A DNA stretch of 64,000 bases from Leeuwenhoekiella aequorea. GTDB taxonomy: Bacteria; Bacteroidota; Bacteroidia; Flavobacteriales; Flavobacteriaceae. Positions within the stretch are counted from its first letter, which is position 1; every line of letters starts with the position of its first letter. A model generated the notes under the pieces. The model did no database searches. It saw only the letters and a program-made list of their open reading frames with translations, and had not been told where the DNA came from. The stretch spans positions 682,001 through 746,000 of the forward strand of contig NZ_QOVM01000001.1 of NCBI RefSeq assembly GCF_004104375.1. Direction: 5' to 3'. Shown here in pieces: positions 3,419-11,958 of this stretch. A program made the translations under genes and the position numbers.

Positions 3419-4186
3419 TTAATTTATGCGATATTTCTTAATAGCTGCCTGTATTTTCTCAATACGATTTTCAGGATCTGGATGCGAACTTTGAAACTCA
3501 GGAACACTTTGGCCACCACTTGCTTCTTTTAAAATTTGCATTACCTCAATAAGGGCTTCTGGATTATAACCGGCTTCGATCATAAATTTAACTCCTAAGT
3601 CATCACTTTCTAATTCATCGCCACGACCATTTTTTAATAATAAGGTTTGACCTATTTGTGAAGCAAGCATACCCGCATCTGCACCTACCTGAGCTCCTGT
3701 AGCAACAGTATTTGCAAGTTCGCTTTGTGCTATACGTTCTGCAGAATGCCTGCCTACAACGTGACCAATTTCATGACCTAAAATCCCGGCAAGTTGATCT
3801 TCGCTATCCAGGCGCTCCATAAGAGCGTAGGTAATAAATATCTGACCACCCGGCAATGCAAAGGCGTTTACAGTATTGGGATCACGTAAAAGATGAAACT
3901 CATATTCATAAGGTGTTTCTCGAGCAATAGTATTGTCTACAAGCTTTTTACCTACTTGATCTACAAACTCCTGTAATTGAGCATCCGGGTGAAGACCTCC
4001 ATGTTGTTCTGCCATAATAGGGGCATTTTGTAAACCAATTGCTATTTCCTCATCGGTAGATAAGTTTATCGCCTGTGTGCGACCAGTATATGGGTTTTCT
4101 TCCTGACTCCCACAATACCGAACTAATCCAAATGCTACTATGGCCACTCCTAAAACAATTTTAAGCGATCTTCCTCCTAATTTCAT
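3419..4186 (-). CDS. M48 family metalloprotease, membrane- or periplasm-directed
   Basis: 255 aa. A hydrophobic N-terminal helix (residues 8-24) acts as signal or anchor; a cysteine follows in VRYCG, but this is not a proper lipobox. The catalytic motif HEIGH at 138-142 (HExxH, zinc ligands His138 and His142, base Glu139) is followed by ELESDD near residues 195-200, which would supply the third zinc ligand. Loss of multi-pass membrane segments separates it from HtpX; it resembles the soluble BepA/LoiP type that degrades misfolded envelope proteins. The role in this organism is inferred from family only. Confidence 0.9.
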   Translation of the reverse strand: MKLGGRSLKIVLGVAIVAFGLVRYCGSQEENPYTGRTQAINLSTDEEIAIGLQNAPIMAEQHGGLHPDAQLQEFVDQVGKKLVDNTIARETPYEYEFHLLRDPNTVNAFALPGGQIFITYALMERLDSEDQLAGILGHEIGHVVGRHSAERIAQSELANTVATGAQVGADAGMLASQIGQTLLLKNGRGDELESDDLGVKFMIEAGYNPEALIEVMQILKEASGGQSVPEFQSSHPDPENRIEKIQAAIKKYRIN

Positions 4187-6984: not shown

Positions 6985-7761
6985 ATGAAATTTTATACGC
7001 TTATATTTTTATGCTTATTGGGCATCTATCCAGCTATAGGACAGCAAGTCGCACGTGTAATGGTAGGAGGCCAGATACTTGTTCCTGCAGGTGATGATCC
7101 TAGCGGAATTGTCATTTATAATGAGACTTCTATGCGTGGTACTATTACTTCCCTTGAAGGTACTTTTGAAATTGCGGTTGCAAAAAATGATGAGATTGTA
7201 ATACAATCTGTACAATTTGCGCCGGTGACTGTACTTGTCGATAAAGGAATTGTAAACACTAAGAAAATGAGCATTACGTTGCGTGAAACTGTAAATGTTC
7301 TAGATGAGATTATAGTTACGCCTTACGATCTTACCGGTGATATTATTGCAGATGTTAATCGCATTCGGGTAATTGAACCTGTACCTTTTAGTGCAAAAGA
7401 TATACGCATCGAGGATAGTCAATATGATAAAAACTCACCTGCAGAAAATGTAGCTATAGATAATGAGCGTTGGAGATACGGACTCAATTTTGTAAATATT
7501 TTTAAAGCAGTTTTTAATATCAATAAAGATAATGCTGATATTGAGAGTAGTGCAGAAGATGAACTTGCTGCGATGTACTCAAATCAATTTTTTCAAGAGA
7601 ATTTGAATATTGAAAAGCAATCTATTGGCGCTTATATGGATTATGTTGCGGCAAATGGTCTAGATAAAGAAATGCTTGAAAATGGAAACGAACTAAATCT
7701 CATTCAATTCTTAATCGAAAAGCGAGATGACTTTATTAAAATTCAGACTCAAAATGATTAA
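6985..7761 (+). CDS. Exported CarboxypepD_reg-like protein (first of a tandem pair)
   Basis: 258 aa. A signal peptide (MKFYTLIFLCLLGIYPAIGQ) is followed by a beta-sandwich of the CarboxypepD_reg type: GQILV, then ITSLEGTFEIAV, DEIVIQSVQF and LDEIIVTPYDL. This module normally precedes a TonB-dependent receptor plug, but here the protein stops after about 140 further helical residues with no barrel. The C-terminal end (LIQFLIEKRDDFIKI) resembles that of the next gene, so the two are paralogs. Function is unknown. It starts a plus-strand run ending with an M1 peptidase, divergent from pepE. Confidence 0.8.
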   Translation: MKFYTLIFLCLLGIYPAIGQQVARVMVGGQILVPAGDDPSGIVIYNETSMRGTITSLEGTFEIAVAKNDEIVIQSVQFAPVTVLVDKGIVNTKKMSITLRETVNVLDEIIVTPYDLTGDIIADVNRIRVIEPVPFSAKDIRIEDSQYDKNSPAENVAIDNERWRYGLNFVNIFKAVFNINKDNADIESSAEDELAAMYSNQFFQENLNIEKQSIGAYMDYVAANGLDKEMLENGNELNLIQFLIEKRDDFIKIQTQND

Positions 7762-7828
7762 GTAGACGTGCAACTTTTATATACTTGTCACGTATTTAAG
7801 AAAACAAATCATTAGTCCACTATCTCAC

Positions 7829-8650
7829 GTGTTTAGGAATAAGCAATACTTTCTATTTTTTGTACTCTTCGGTAGTATGCTTATACCTTTGCATATTCAG
7901 GGGCAAGAGGCTATTCAGTTAACTGGTAAAATCACTAATGATTCTATAGATCACGAGTATCTACATGTTCTCAATTTAACCTTGCAAAAAGGGACAATAA
8001 CAAATGAAAAAGGTGTTTTTAGAATTCCAGTGCGCGAGCAGGATACACTATATATATCAGCCGTACAGTTTAAGCCAAAGGAAGTTGTAATTACTTCAGA
8101 AATTATAGCTAAAAACTTTCTAAAACTAGAGCTTGAAACTAATGTTACCGAACTCGAAGATGTAAACATTAGCGATATAGATTTAAGTGGAAGGCTTGGG
8201 GATGATATGAATATCCCAAAAGTTGAGAAACCATTCAATCCTGCAGATGCAGGTCTTCCTGTATATACAGGTCCCATCATTACGCAAGAAGAGCGTAAAC
8301 TATATACTGCAACTCATTCTGGTGGAGGTATCATACCGGTAAATGCTGTTATAAATGCAATTTCTGGACGTACTAAAATGCTAAAAAATCATGTTCGTAT
8401 TTCTAATATGGAAATAAGAGTTCAAAAAGCACGTAATCTAGTTTCAGACAGCACATATATTTATCAGCTCAATATTCCAGCAAAATATATTGATGATTTT
8501 GCGCATTATATTTATCAGGACAAAACTGAAAACCTTCAGATAGCTTCAGAGGATAATCCGTTATCCTTAATTGAACTCCTAATGGATCAGGCACCATTAT
8601 ATCTTCAGTTTAAGCAAATAGATGGTGTTAATCTTCAGAAAAAGGAATAA
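7829..8650 (+). CDS. Exported CarboxypepD_reg-like protein (second of a tandem pair, GTG start)
   Basis: 273 aa from a GTG at 7829; the hydrophobic signal peptide (residues 6-25) begins immediately after, so this start is needed. The CarboxypepD_reg fold is seen in LTGKITNDS, ITNEKGVFRIPV, DTLYISAVQF and ELEDVNISDIDLSG. The linker is rich in proline and glycine, and a helical C-terminus ends with LIELLMDQAPLYLQFKQ, matching the pattern of the preceding paralog. No enzymatic motif is visible. It lies 67 bases after its paralog and 83 bases before the DUF6702 gene. Confidence 0.8.
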   Translation: MFRNKQYFLFFVLFGSMLIPLHIQGQEAIQLTGKITNDSIDHEYLHVLNLTLQKGTITNEKGVFRIPVREQDTLYISAVQFKPKEVVITSEIIAKNFLKLELETNVTELEDVNISDIDLSGRLGDDMNIPKVEKPFNPADAGLPVYTGPIITQEERKLYTATHSGGGIIPVNAVINAISGRTKMLKNHVRISNMEIRVQKARNLVSDSTYIYQLNIPAKYIDDFAHYIYQDKTENLQIASEDNPLSLIELLMDQAPLYLQFKQIDGVNLQKKE

Positions 8651-8733
8651 TCTAATTTTTGGAATATATTTTGTTCAGATAGATTTGAAAAAAAGTTTAA
8701 GACTTCTTTTAAAGTTTTAATTTTATAAAATCT

Positions 8734-9234
8734 ATGAAAAAATTACTTGTTTTAATTCTCGTAGCTCTACCATTAATGGCTGCGAGCGCCCATAAATATT
8801 ATTTTAGTGTAACTCAGGCAGACTACGATGTAAAGTCTAAATCTCTAAAAATAGTTACGCGCGTGTTTTATGATGATCTGGAAAAAGTTTTTCAAGAACG
8901 TTATGACAAATCCATCAAGGTAGATAAAACTTATGATCAGGAAAAATTAGATGCCTACATTCAAAAATACTTTAATTCAAAGTTCATTGTCTCAATAAAT
9001 GGCAAAGAGCAGAAGCTATCCTATATAGGTCATAAGGATGAAGTTGACTACGTGGTATGTTTTGTGGAAGTTAAGAACATTACTAATCCTCAATCTATAG
9101 AAATTGAAAATACTTTGCTGATGGATATGTTTCCAGATCAAAAGAATGTGATACATCTTCAAGTGGGCAACACCAAGAAAAGTTACCTGCTTAACAAAGA
9201 AAATGATAAAGCAATGTTAAAACTTTCTGAATAA
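8734..9234 (+). CDS. DUF6702 family exported protein
   Basis: 166 aa. A signal peptide ends near ASA at residues 17-19, followed by the family-typical HKYYFSVTQ at 20-28. The mature part is mostly beta-strand with a central TRVFYDDLEKVF segment. The family is widespread in Bacteroidetes with no known activity. It is almost always exported, and here it lies between CarboxypepD_reg-like proteins and an M1 peptidase, 65 bases upstream of the latter, which suggests a shared periplasmic job. Confidence 0.82.
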   Translation: MKKLLVLILVALPLMAASAHKYYFSVTQADYDVKSKSLKIVTRVFYDDLEKVFQERYDKSIKVDKTYDQEKLDAYIQKYFNSKFIVSINGKEQKLSYIGHKDEVDYVVCFVEVKNITNPQSIEIENTLLMDMFPDQKNVIHLQVGNTKKSYLLNKENDKAMLKLSE

Positions 9235-9299
9235 TTTATTAACATATACCTAATCTTTACTTTTATAGAATTCAAAAGCACAAAATCGAATTACAATTT

Positions 9300-11600
9300 A
9301 TGAAACAAATCAAGTACACATTATTTAGTTTGATGTTTCTAGCAGCCTCTGTAGGTTTTGCTCAGGAAGCACCAGCTAAAGAAGAACGCCAGGCTGGGCA
9401 CACAAACACTAATAAGTTTAGACAACTTTATAATGAATTTGCTACGCCTAATCAATTCCGTACGGCTTCTGGAGCCCCAGGACCTGCATATTACCAGAAT
9501 GAAGCTGATTATGAAATTAAAATTGAGCTTAATGATGATAATCAGACCATAAGTGGTTACGAGACCATTACATACAAAAATAATTCACCAGATAAATTAG
9601 AGTATTTATGGGTGCAATTAGATCAAAATATACGCAAAAAAGATTCTCCTGCACTAGAGAAAGATGGTAGCGGATTAGCACCGGTAAACCAACCTGGTTC
9701 AATTGTGAATAGTTATATGAAAGAACCTTTTGATGGGGGGTTCAATATTTTAGAAGTTACTCAAGACGGGAAGCCTCTAAAGCATATGATAAATTTCACA
9801 ATGATGCGAATAGATATGCCACAACCACTAGCGCCAGGTGAGGAATTTGAATTTAGCGTAAAGTGGAATTTTAATATTGTTGAACATACTGTAGACAGAG
9901 CACGCTCTGGTTATGAAAGTTTTCCTGACGGAAACAAAAACTATGTTATTGCACAATTTTTTCCAAGAATGTGTGTATACAATGATGTAGAAGGATGGCA
10001 AAATTATCAGTTCTGGGGTAACGGTGAGTTCGCACTACCTTTTGGCGATTATGATGTAGAAATTACAGTTCCTGCAGATCATTTATTAGACGGTACGGGG
10101 GATCTTGTGAATAGAAAAGAGGTGTACTCAAAAGAAATGATGAGCCGTTGGGAGCAAGCTCAAAAGAGTTATGACAAGCCGGTTATCATTAGATCACAAG
10201 CAGAAGCTGTCGAAATTGAAAAAGGTCGTAGTAAAGCAAAGAAAACCTGGAAGTTGCATGCCGATAATGTACGTGATTTTGCATTTACATCTTCTCGCAA
10301 GTATATAATGGATGCTCAAGCGGTTAAGTTTCCTAAAGGAGATGTAATGGCTATTTCTATTTATCCTAAAGAAGGTAACCCGCTTTGGGAAGAATATTCA
10401 ACCAAAGCTGTGGTACAAACTTTAAAGTCTTATTCAAGAATGACTTTTGATTACCCATACCCTAAAGCTATTTCTGTACACGGTCAAAATCAAGGGATGG
10501 AATATCCTATGATATGCTGGAATTATGGTCGCCCAGATGAAGATGGTTCTTATAGCGATCGTACAAAATATGGTATGATCAGTGTAATTATTCACGAGGT
10601 AGGTCATAACTTTTTCCCAATGATCGTTAACAGTGACGAGCGCCAGTGGGGTTGGATGGATGAAGGTATTAATACTTTTGTACAATATGTAGCAGAGCAA
10701 GATTTTGGAGAGAATTTTCCTGAGGCAATAGCACCAAATTCGAAGTATCCTTCACGTCGTGGAGAGCCTTCAAAAATAACAGGTTATATGGGTGGCGATC
10801 AAAATTTTATCTCGCCTATCATGTCAAATCCTGAAAATGTTTATCAGTTAGGAAACAATGCCTACGGAAAACCTGCAACTGCGCTTAATATTTTAAGAGA
10901 AACAGTTATGGGTCGTGAGTTATTTGACTATTCTTTTAAAACTTACGCACAACGCTGGATGTTTAAGCATCCTACACCTGAAGATTTTTTCCGCACGATG
11001 GAAGACGCTTCTGCTGTAGATCTTGACTGGTACTGGAGAGGTTGGTTTTATACAACCGAGAATGTTGATATGGGTGTAGAAAGCGTTAAATCATATTACT
11101 TAACAAATAAACCTACAGCTGCTGGTAAAGAAATGCTTGCAAGATATGGTGCAGACCCTGCTAATGTAGACGCTGTTTATGTTGTTGAAGAAGGTGGTGA
11201 AGATTATGATGCAGCTATGAAAGGTAAGGCTGTTACTGAAAATGCGCCTAACCTTAATGAGTTTATGATGGATAACTTTACACCGGCAGAACGTGCAAAG
11301 TTAAAAGCACCAAAACATTTTTACGCAGTAACATTTAATAAGCCGGGCGGGATACCTATGCCTATTATTGTTGAATATAGTTATGCAGATGGTTCTAAAG
11401 AGAAAGTTACATATCCTGTACAGGTATGGCGCAAAAATGATGCGGCAGTAACAAAAGTTCTTGCAACAGATAAAGAACTTGTAGGTGTTATGCTGGATCC
11501 TAATTTAGAAACTGCAGATGTTGACGTTACTAACAACAGCTGGCCAAAACAAGAGCCGGTAAGCGAATTTGATAGCTTTAAAGAAGGTTCTGAAGATTAA
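9300..11600 (+). CDS. M1 family zinc metallopeptidase, exported
   Basis: 766 aa. A signal peptide ending near FAQ (residue 22) precedes an aminopeptidase N-like beta domain (about 60-300), then the gluzincin catalytic domain. The zinc site HEVGH followed 18 residues later by a Glu in WMDEG is complete (HExxH-x18-E). The substrate-exopeptidase loop GMEYPM replaces the usual GxMEN, so N-terminal recognition may differ from classical aminopeptidase N. The C-terminus lacks the long helical domain IV and ends in a beta-rich segment. It is the last large gene of the 6985-11600 run and is followed by a good terminator. Confidence 0.92.
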   Translation: MKQIKYTLFSLMFLAASVGFAQEAPAKEERQAGHTNTNKFRQLYNEFATPNQFRTASGAPGPAYYQNEADYEIKIELNDDNQTISGYETITYKNNSPDKLEYLWVQLDQNIRKKDSPALEKDGSGLAPVNQPGSIVNSYMKEPFDGGFNILEVTQDGKPLKHMINFTMMRIDMPQPLAPGEEFEFSVKWNFNIVEHTVDRARSGYESFPDGNKNYVIAQFFPRMCVYNDVEGWQNYQFWGNGEFALPFGDYDVEITVPADHLLDGTGDLVNRKEVYSKEMMSRWEQAQKSYDKPVIIRSQAEAVEIEKGRSKAKKTWKLHADNVRDFAFTSSRKYIMDAQAVKFPKGDVMAISIYPKEGNPLWEEYSTKAVVQTLKSYSRMTFDYPYPKAISVHGQNQGMEYPMICWNYGRPDEDGSYSDRTKYGMISVIIHEVGHNFFPMIVNSDERQWGWMDEGINTFVQYVAEQDFGENFPEAIAPNSKYPSRRGEPSKITGYMGGDQNFISPIMSNPENVYQLGNNAYGKPATALNILRETVMGRELFDYSFKTYAQRWMFKHPTPEDFFRTMEDASAVDLDWYWRGWFYTTENVDMGVESVKSYYLTNKPTAAGKEMLARYGADPANVDAVYVVEEGGEDYDAAMKGKAVTENAPNLNEFMMDNFTPAERAKLKAPKHFYAVTFNKPGGIPMPIIVEYSYADGSKEKVTYPVQVWRKNDAAVTKVLATDKELVGVMLDPNLETADVDVTNNSWPKQEPVSEFDSFKEGSED

Positions 11601-11624: not shown

Positions 11625-11652
11625 AAAAGCCGGTGATCTTTCATCGGCTTTT
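11625..11652 (+). terminator. Intrinsic terminator after the M1 peptidase gene
   Basis: A 12-bp stem with one G-T pair (AAAAGCCGGTGA with TCATCGGCTTTT) and a 4-base loop sits 24 bases past the stop and is followed by TCATTTTTC. Confidence 0.8.
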
Positions 11653-11679: not shown

Positions 11680-11958
11680 ATGAATATACCATTTTTTATT
11701 AGCGGCGCAGAAATAGGCTTTATCGTTTTTATCATTGTAATGGTATTTGGCGCTGATAAAGTTCCTGATATTGCAAGAGGTCTCGGTAAGGGAATGCGTA
11801 CTTTAAAAAACGCTACAAACGATATCAAAACTGAAATTACTAAAAGTGCAGATAAGCAGGGAATCAATACAGACATAGCAAAAGATGTCAAGAAAGAAAT
11901 TGATGATGCCAAGAAGCACATAAGCGAGATTACAGGAAGTGTAAAGCGTAATCTGTAA
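11680..11958 (+). CDS. tatA: Twin-arginine translocase subunit TatA/TatE
   Basis: 92 aa. The protein has a short N-terminal membrane helix (about residues 7-24), the hinge FGADKVPDIARGLGKGM with the conserved FG and the basic amphipathic helix, then a charged tail. TatA oligomers form the export path for folded Tat substrates recruited by TatC. tatC is not adjacent; it lies at 55222-56070. The gene is flanked upstream by a terminator and its own candidate promoter, so it is probably monocistronic. Confidence 0.93.
   Translation: MNIPFFISGAEIGFIVFIIVMVFGADKVPDIARGLGKGMRTLKNATNDIKTEITKSADKQGINTDIAKDVKKEIDDAKKHISEITGSVKRNL

Follow-up and report, generated by a model that had tools for sequence, protein, structure and literature searches.

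A bamP locus in Leeuwenhoekiella aequorea that probably combines two BAM accessory proteins with a DUF6702-M1 pair in one transcript

Four consecutive genes on the plus strand, at positions 6985-11600 of a 64,000-nucleotide stretch of Leeuwenhoekiella aequorea contig NZ_QOVM01000001.1 (the window), encode two paralogous proteins, here called P1 and P2, a DUF6702 protein, and an M1 family zinc metallopeptidase. An earlier reading of the letters alone, the original prediction, described them as four exported proteins, the two paralogs lacking a barrel, that no known pathway joins. Open reading frames and comparisons with Pfam, NCBIfam, and the PDB agree with most of this description: the gene order is as stated, export signals are visible by eye, the DUF6702 protein scores 164 bits on PF20420 against a gathering score of 24, and P1 and P2, with 258 and 273 amino acids, leave no room for a barrel. 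The absence of a known pathway does not hold, as P1 and P2 fall within the family of BamP, a subunit of the beta-barrel assembly machinery (BAM), and the published bamP gene lies in an orthologous locus. The features of the block are as follows.

6985-7761, plus strand: P1, a BamP-type protein of 258 amino acids with a signal peptide (by eye), a CarboxypepD_reg beta-sandwich, a BamP-type linker, and a C-terminal helical domain
7330-7518, plus strand: P1 inter-domain linker, motif D..S..EN(I/V)A....YG.NFVNIFK (boundaries and motif by eye from an alignment)
7829-8650, plus strand: P2, a second BamP-family protein of 273 amino acids with a GTG start and a different, strongly conserved linker
8174-8395, plus strand: P2 linker, family motif LGLP...TQ.ER.L..A...GGG..P.N.IIN.ISGRTKMLK, mean conservation 2.13 bits
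8396-8647, plus strand: P2 C-terminal helical domain, with helices in an AlphaFold2 model and a C-domain profile match to that of P1
8659-8687, plus strand: candidate internal promoter 5′ of the DUF6702 gene, TTG-N18-TAGATTTG, with a TAnnTTTG match at 8680
8734-9234, plus strand: DUF6702 protein of 166 amino acids, its mature N-terminus probably His (codon 8791-8793)
9300-11600, plus strand: M1 family zinc metallopeptidase of 766 amino acids, PF01433 at 41.4 bits
10494-10505, plus strand: GMEY, a variant of the GxMEN loop that two paralogues have likewise
10593-10664, plus strand: HExxH-x18-E zinc-binding motif
11625-11652, plus strand: hairpin, from a hairpin search, predicted to be the terminator that closes the unit
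11680-11958, plus strand: TatA (Pfam, gene order), a conserved neighbour placed outside the unit by terminators 5′ of tatA

The gaps between the four genes are short, with 67 bp between P1 and P2, 83 bp between P2 and DUF6702, and 65 bp between DUF6702 and M1.

The evidence on P1 and P2 comes from sequence profiles, solved structures, and gene position. Pfam places CarbopepD_reg_2 on both proteins below its 32.2-bit cut-off (25.7 bits for P1 and 30.5 bits for P2), while the NCBIfam BamP model NF053692 matches P1 almost from end to end (102.4 bits, residues 1-256 against profile positions 1-249 of 251) and covers the N-domain of P2 (76.0 bits). For each of the two, the best solved structure by sequence is PDB 9n2d_E, which is BamP in the Flavobacterium johnsoniae BAM complex. 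P1 aligns with this chain over residues 7-254 (E 1.9e-7), and a profile of 121 P2-type proteins does so from profile position 3 to 236 on chain residues 25-248 of 249 (E 3.5e-26); SusC/TonB-type chains match the P2-type profile solely in the N-terminal domain. Profiles of the P1 and P2 types align with one another over 237 columns (E 1e-43), and their C-domains alone do so at E 7e-18, against 0.0079 or worse in ten column-shuffled controls and 0.46 for the reversed profile, each of these C-domain E-values being that of a single comparison. An AlphaFold2 model of mature P2 (mean predicted local distance difference test score, pLDDT, 88.4; predicted template modelling score, pTM, 0.54) contains a confident beta-sandwich (residues 6-77) and a helical C-domain (residues 158-241), joined by a linker in which short helices are predicted.

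These comparisons place P1 and P2 in the BamP family. They share with F. johnsoniae BamP (Fjoh_1771, PDB 9n2d/9n2e) a CarboxypepD_reg N-domain, an extended linker, a C-terminal helical domain, and the lack of a barrel, and they lie in an orthologue of its locus, with DUF6702, M1, and tatA located 3′. The L. aequorea genome also has Omp85-family proteins. The earlier description of the paralogs as barrel-less relatives of TonB receptors that keep the beta-sandwich and an LDEIIVT-type junction is thus accurate only in part: P1 does read LDEIIVT, but P2 reads LEDVNIS, a loose match, and in place of the plug and 22-strand barrel of a TonB/SusC receptor there are a conserved linker and, in the P2 model, a helical C-domain, which are parts of BamP.

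P1 and P2 differ most clearly in their linkers. P1-type linkers and that of F. johnsoniae BamP have a common motif, D..S..N....YG..FV.IFK (by eye), whereas P2-type linkers terminate in N.ISGRTKMLK. In a set of 167 P2-type proteins, obtained from 203 by removing near-copies, the linker is the best-conserved part, with 2.13 bits (1.96 in its first half and 2.28 in its second); the N-domain has 1.94 bits and the C-domain 1.56. Such conservation would not be expected of a passive tether. The BamA gate probably has several separately conserved plugs. The two types usually occur together, although not always, as the original prediction had suggested checking: both are present in 68 of 85 loci, with P2-type proteins only in 10 and P1-type proteins only in 7. 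Two further members of the family were noted. In L. aequorea itself (L130:3388-4932, contig C8), the BamP model gives 83 and 82 bits to a second tandem pair of barrel-less BamP-like proteins, encoded next to genes resembling coaD and ddl (named by eye), and in another genome (G111:C11:300931-301098), a 97-aa frame matches the BamP C-terminal domain alone at 48% identity.

With the BamP chain as the query, a protein of 100% identity was found in one genome (G254; one contig of 6.1 Mb), taken below as F. johnsoniae, where it scores 371.1 bits on NF053692. Its gene stands in the order pepE (minus strand), two P2-type genes, bamP, DUF6702, M1, and tatA, followed 3′ of tatA by one more gene and then an O-methyltransferase gene on the opposite strand. 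There, bamP and DUF6702 share one base, the last of the stop and the first of the start (TAATG), and the M1 protein is 57.6% identical to that of the window. Judged by gene content and order, the block in the window is the local version of the bamP locus. In the literature, a search for Fjoh_1769 to Fjoh_1773 returned Liu et al. only, for Fjoh_1771, and a search that combined M1, carboxypeptidase-like proteins, and BAM found nothing.

The gene order is conserved across Flavobacteriaceae and so is not unique to this genome. In 80 named loci, selected as the best P2-type matches among 535, DUF6702 comes after a BamP-like gene in 77, M1 after DUF6702 in 76, and TatA after M1 in 67. Where DUF6702 is missing (three loci), or is present with no M1 (one locus), the locus runs into a contig end. 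Across 120 genera, DUF6702 was found in 104, followed by M1 in 99 and preceded 5′ by a listed BamP-like gene in 90. When the 14 loci first counted without such a gene were re-checked, one was found in G009, G024, G054, and G108, and in G072 an M1 copy lies in between. In the stretches fetched, no BamP-like gene stands beside the DUF6702-M1 pair in G002, G030, G070, or G074, none was seen upstream in G014, G100, or G112, and the DUF6702 gene of G027 is at the edge of a contig. A re-check of G034 found M1 behind DUF6702 there too, also at a contig edge. Two M1 frames, apparently duplicated, are present at the locus in G062, G072, and G115. Outside the block, an M48-type metallopeptidase gene (family assigned by eye) lies at 3419-4186 of the window on the minus strand, and 40 of the 85 loci fetched have a relative close to bamP.

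Terminator-like hairpins were counted in gaps of up to 900 bp, with base-shuffled gaps as the control and with locus sets that overlap in species. They occur in 12 of 207 gaps between BamP-like genes (3.7 after shuffling), in 4 of 148 between BamP and DUF6702 (1.3), in 4 of 143 between DUF6702 and M1 (2.0), and in 98 of 128 between M1 and TatA (1.7). Since hairpins are common after M1 and rare between the four genes, the genes probably form one transcript that ends after M1 in most of the loci examined, and TatA as part of the unit was ruled out by the terminators 5′ of its gene. A conserved block, probably transcribed as one, is in line with the original prediction, and the few terminators inside it do not generally separate the genes in relatives. 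The candidate promoter at 8659-8687 follows a consensus pattern that occurs in 8 of 148 gaps between BamP and DUF6702 compared with 2.6 in shuffles, so the DUF6702-M1 pair may have an additional start of its own. Within the window, the TAnnTTTG element alone is found at chance frequency (94 against 91.0 expected), and a scan for sigma-70-type promoters was uninformative (29 found, 30.3 expected).

The DUF6702 protein resembles a published metal-binding protein from Pseudomonas, PaDUF6702, which has been described as a "metal sequesterase", binds Ni with a picomolar dissociation constant and Co and Cu with nanomolar ones, and is modelled with a Ni/Cu site made of His1, His28, and His32 (PMC12537917). 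The same report gives M1 among the neighbours of DUF6702 genes (PMC12537917). The two proteins have in common the Pfam family (PF20420), an export signal (by eye), an N-terminal His, and the M1 neighbour. This His, located after the putative signal peptide, is present in 150 of 150 DUF6702 frames of the family, which come from two locus sets that overlap in species, and in 31 of 31 frames from regions outside the family, picked by hand among the DUF6702 matches listed; M1 follows directly in 149 of the former and 4 of the latter. In contrast to PaDUF6702, position 28 is Asp in 148 of the 150 family frames and position 32 is variable, with no conserved His; position 122 is His in 103.

The M1 protein scores 41.4 bits on Peptidase_M1 (PF01433, cut-off 27.7), with no other Pfam domain above its cut-off, and among PDB sequences it has distant relatives only (12 at E 0.001, the best being ERAP1 at E 1.1e-5). 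The HExxH-x18-E zinc motif that it shares with M1 aminopeptidases is intact here and in 173 of 173 orthologous frames. GxMEN is the substrate-binding loop of M1 aminopeptidases, and unlike in those enzymes, it reads GMEY in the window protein (N to Y); a regular expression found GMEY in 141 of the 173 orthologous frames and left 32 unmatched. The altered loop noticed in the original prediction is therefore real but was discarded as a special feature of the block, as L. aequorea encodes two other M1 paralogues with GGMEY and a third with AGMEN.

DUF6702 and M1 form a separate unit, and with few exceptions they are retained or lost jointly. Among the 120 genera, M1 orthologues (E 1e-150 or better) are found in 105, and both proteins are present in 103 and neither in 14, with DUF6702 only in one (G088) and M1 only in two (G042 and G080), which gives a Fisher p of 2.6e-15, uncorrected for kinship. 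The G088 protein is a weak match in a longer frame, and a DUF6702 profile found nothing in that genome. Ten loci with tatA (G004, G021, G026, G037, G038, G043, G075, G082, G107, and G114) have neither a DUF6702 nor an M1 frame to separate tatA from the BamP-like genes; the last BamP-like frame there abuts the tatA frame, at -6 to 82 bp, and is the single BamP-like gene in G038, G043, G075, and G107. A tree of 82 of the 85 loci was built from pepE, the O-methyltransferase gene, and tatA. On it, 8 changes are required to explain where DUF6702 is absent, of which well-supported branches force 3, and 9 to explain where M1 is absent; in independent pairs, the two genes never change in opposite directions. 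Decaying pseudogenes were considered for the M1 genes of G042 and G080 and rejected, as neither has a stop within the homologous part (the G042 frame has stops at its end, and the G080 frame is shorter). Both M1-only frames are open. Taken together, M1 appears to need DUF6702 less than DUF6702 needs M1, and neither depends on BamP. Second DUF6702 matches were seen at other places in two genomes (G073:C18 and G058:C29).

What the BamP proteins might do can be considered in light of the F. johnsoniae complex. Liu et al. (2025, PMC12611786) reported that the linker of BamP, a BAM subunit, runs into the BamA barrel and exits at the lateral seam, that its homologues diverge markedly in the linker loop, and that deleting all four of them leads to darobactin sensitivity. 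BamP4 was the homologue with the largest effect on darobactin sensitivity, and among the BamP deletions, its loss was the only one to raise vancomycin sensitivity (PMC12611786). By analogy, P1 and P2 would be periplasmic accessory subunits of the BAM complex, with the N-domain docking on the POTRA domains of BamA, as in F. johnsoniae BamP, and the C-domain bridging POTRA1 and BamD. The linker would thread into the BamA barrel and occupy the lateral seam, where it could gate substrate insertion and shield the site from darobactin-like compounds; P1, with the BamP linker, and P2, with the second conserved linker, may be alternative plugs of one seam. As for the other two genes, the DUF6702 protein, with its N-terminal His, would most likely load or hold the metal of M1, or may control the enzyme, and its partnership and motifs suggest that M1 trims peptides in the periplasm. 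Co-transcription with bamP may simply give both modules a common timing in envelope growth, with no contact between them.

Since P1 and P2 are of the BamP family and DUF6702 and M1 form a separate unit, the block reads as a BAM-accessory array plus a metal-protein/peptidase pair rather than as an unknown pathway. We consider it probable that this is a bamP locus with two modules, P1/P2 as BAM accessories and DUF6702-M1 as a metal protein and peptidase, in one probable transcript. Of the original suggestion, periplasmic peptide handling would suit DUF6702 and M1 alone, a half that can be separated from BamP, and we found no evidence for sensing. The bamP locus itself was known; the second linker class, the presence of the DUF6702-M1 pair in the probable bamP transcript, and relatives beyond the reported range are new. 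Two annotation-poor proteins would thereby be placed at the gate of the outer-membrane assembly machine, and the pair would give a testable function to a metal-binding domain known, in the literature that we found, from binding assays and models only.

Several observations weigh against this two-module reading. P1 and P2 both fall below the 230-bit equivalog cut-off of NF053692, so that neither is certified as BamP itself, and the best Foldseek match of the P2 model in the PDB, again 9n2d_E, covers 84 columns, about the N-domain only. F. johnsoniae lacking BamP or all its homologues grew and glided normally in the published tests, and the main text of the report names no peptidase, as judged by a word search (PMC12611786). 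As for the pair, BamP arrays survive its loss in ten loci, the co-loss falls short of significance once only the 3 changes forced by well-supported branches are counted (a sign test with three independent pairs cannot reach it), and G042 and G080 keep M1 without DUF6702, which is thus not strictly required. Matched by position number, the tri-His site of PaDUF6702 is not kept beyond His1.

Each module also has competing explanations. If P1 and P2 were decayed TonB/SusC-type receptors reduced to the N-terminal extension, with no BAM role, the N-domain matches to SusC chains would be explained, but one would hardly expect P2-type proteins to be best conserved in their linker, nor a match to P2 at E 1e-5 in 119 of 120 Flavobacteriaceae genera (the weakest of the matches are not listed), nor a BAM-subunit structure matched over nearly the whole length. 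Moreover, at E 0.01, C-domain profiles of the P2 type, the P1 type, and the class-wide type described below matched 378, 322, and 134 of 10063 frames, respectively, none of them above 420 aa. We regard this explanation as highly improbable. The role of DUF6702 is less clear, since it could be an inhibitor or activity switch of M1 rather than a metal donor. DUF6702 without M1 is seen only as the weak G088 match while M1 stands alone in G042 and G080, and two of the three published metal-site histidines are not kept, all of which would suit a switch; the invariant His1, inside and outside the family, and the tight binding of Ni, Co, and Cu by the one tested DUF6702 protein (PMC12537917) do not, and we find a switch possible but rather doubtful.

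A single machine made of all four proteins must also be considered. Like the BAM-linked metallopeptidases of E. coli, DUF6702 and M1 could work at BAM in quality control, with the peptidase removing stalled or cut substrate peptides from the seam of BamA that BamP guards. Few terminators lie inside the block across the family, bamP and DUF6702 overlap by one base in F. johnsoniae, and DUF6702 follows a BamP-like gene in 90 of 104 genera plus the four re-checked ones, as would be expected if the proteins worked together. Against this, the ten loci without the pair keep BamP beside tatA, the pair occurs with no adjoining BamP-like gene in G070, G074, G030, and G002, and the word "peptidase" is absent from the main text of PMC12611786. 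One machine thus seems unlikely to us, and the two-module bamP locus remains our preferred interpretation.

BamP homologues were reported to be detectable solely in Flavobacteriaceae, and the darobactin resistance of other Bacteroidota was left open (PMC12611786). A search of the class with the P2 profile found proteins in other families that also lack a barrel and have about 245-296 aa. An alignment of nine of these class-wide proteins with the P2 profile spans 231 columns (E 4e-33), and the match persists for the linker plus C-domain (1.8e-12, against 0.072 or worse when shuffled and 0.1 when reversed) and for the C-domain alone (7e-10, against 0.088 or worse and 0.027); matches to the P1-type profile are weaker (1.7e-5 and 1.1e-6, respectively). 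With HMMER, the P2 C-domain profile finds 3 of the nine and the P1 C-domain profile 1. An AlphaFold2 model of a class-wide relative (pLDDT 70.1, 9 sequences) is of low confidence in the linker, and its best PDB match, 9n2d_E (E 7.2e-7), has a root-mean-square deviation of 20 over 146 columns; the structure thus supports the N-domain only, and the evidence for the C-domain is the profile comparison.

Of 197 Bacteroidia genomes, 169 have a match to a profile of the nine at E 1e-15 or better, and the other 28 have none at that level. Among the matches listed, 100 genomes have one over 200 positions in a frame of less than 330 aa, and 93 of these lie outside Flavobacteriaceae, so that at least 93 of 190 genomes outside the family, in at least 34 families, have the near-full-length barrel-less class-wide type. 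F. johnsoniae itself contains this type. Four homologues in its genome, 249-269 aa long, lack a barrel. Three of them belong to the bamP locus; the fourth, at 2.874 Mb, is the only full-size barrel-less homologue found elsewhere and represents the class-wide type. The remaining matches are a 117-aa frame and frames of at least 391 aa. As four BamP homologues were published and four were found, the gene at 2.874 Mb is probably BamP4.

We tentatively suggest, holding it to be possible rather than probable, that BamP-type seam plugs are a widespread BAM accessory of Bacteroidia with several interchangeable linker types, the third of which, distinct from P1 and P2, occurs in at least 34 other families and probably in BamP4, and that this third type could explain darobactin insensitivity outside Flavobacteriaceae. 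Such relatives predict where BamP should extend beyond the single family to which it was reported to be confined, and they offer candidate genes for darobactin resistance in other families. The BAM of Bacteroides thetaiotaomicron and that of Porphyromonas gingivalis have only BamADGH in common with the F. johnsoniae BAM (PMC12611786), so the class-wide type cannot be universal. L. aequorea also encodes a class-wide BamP-type protein (L131:3089-3871; C2:632597-633364 in its genome), and both its gene and the F. johnsoniae gene at 2.874 Mb (L268; G254:C1:2874421-2875179) adjoin a helicase-like frame, named by eye.

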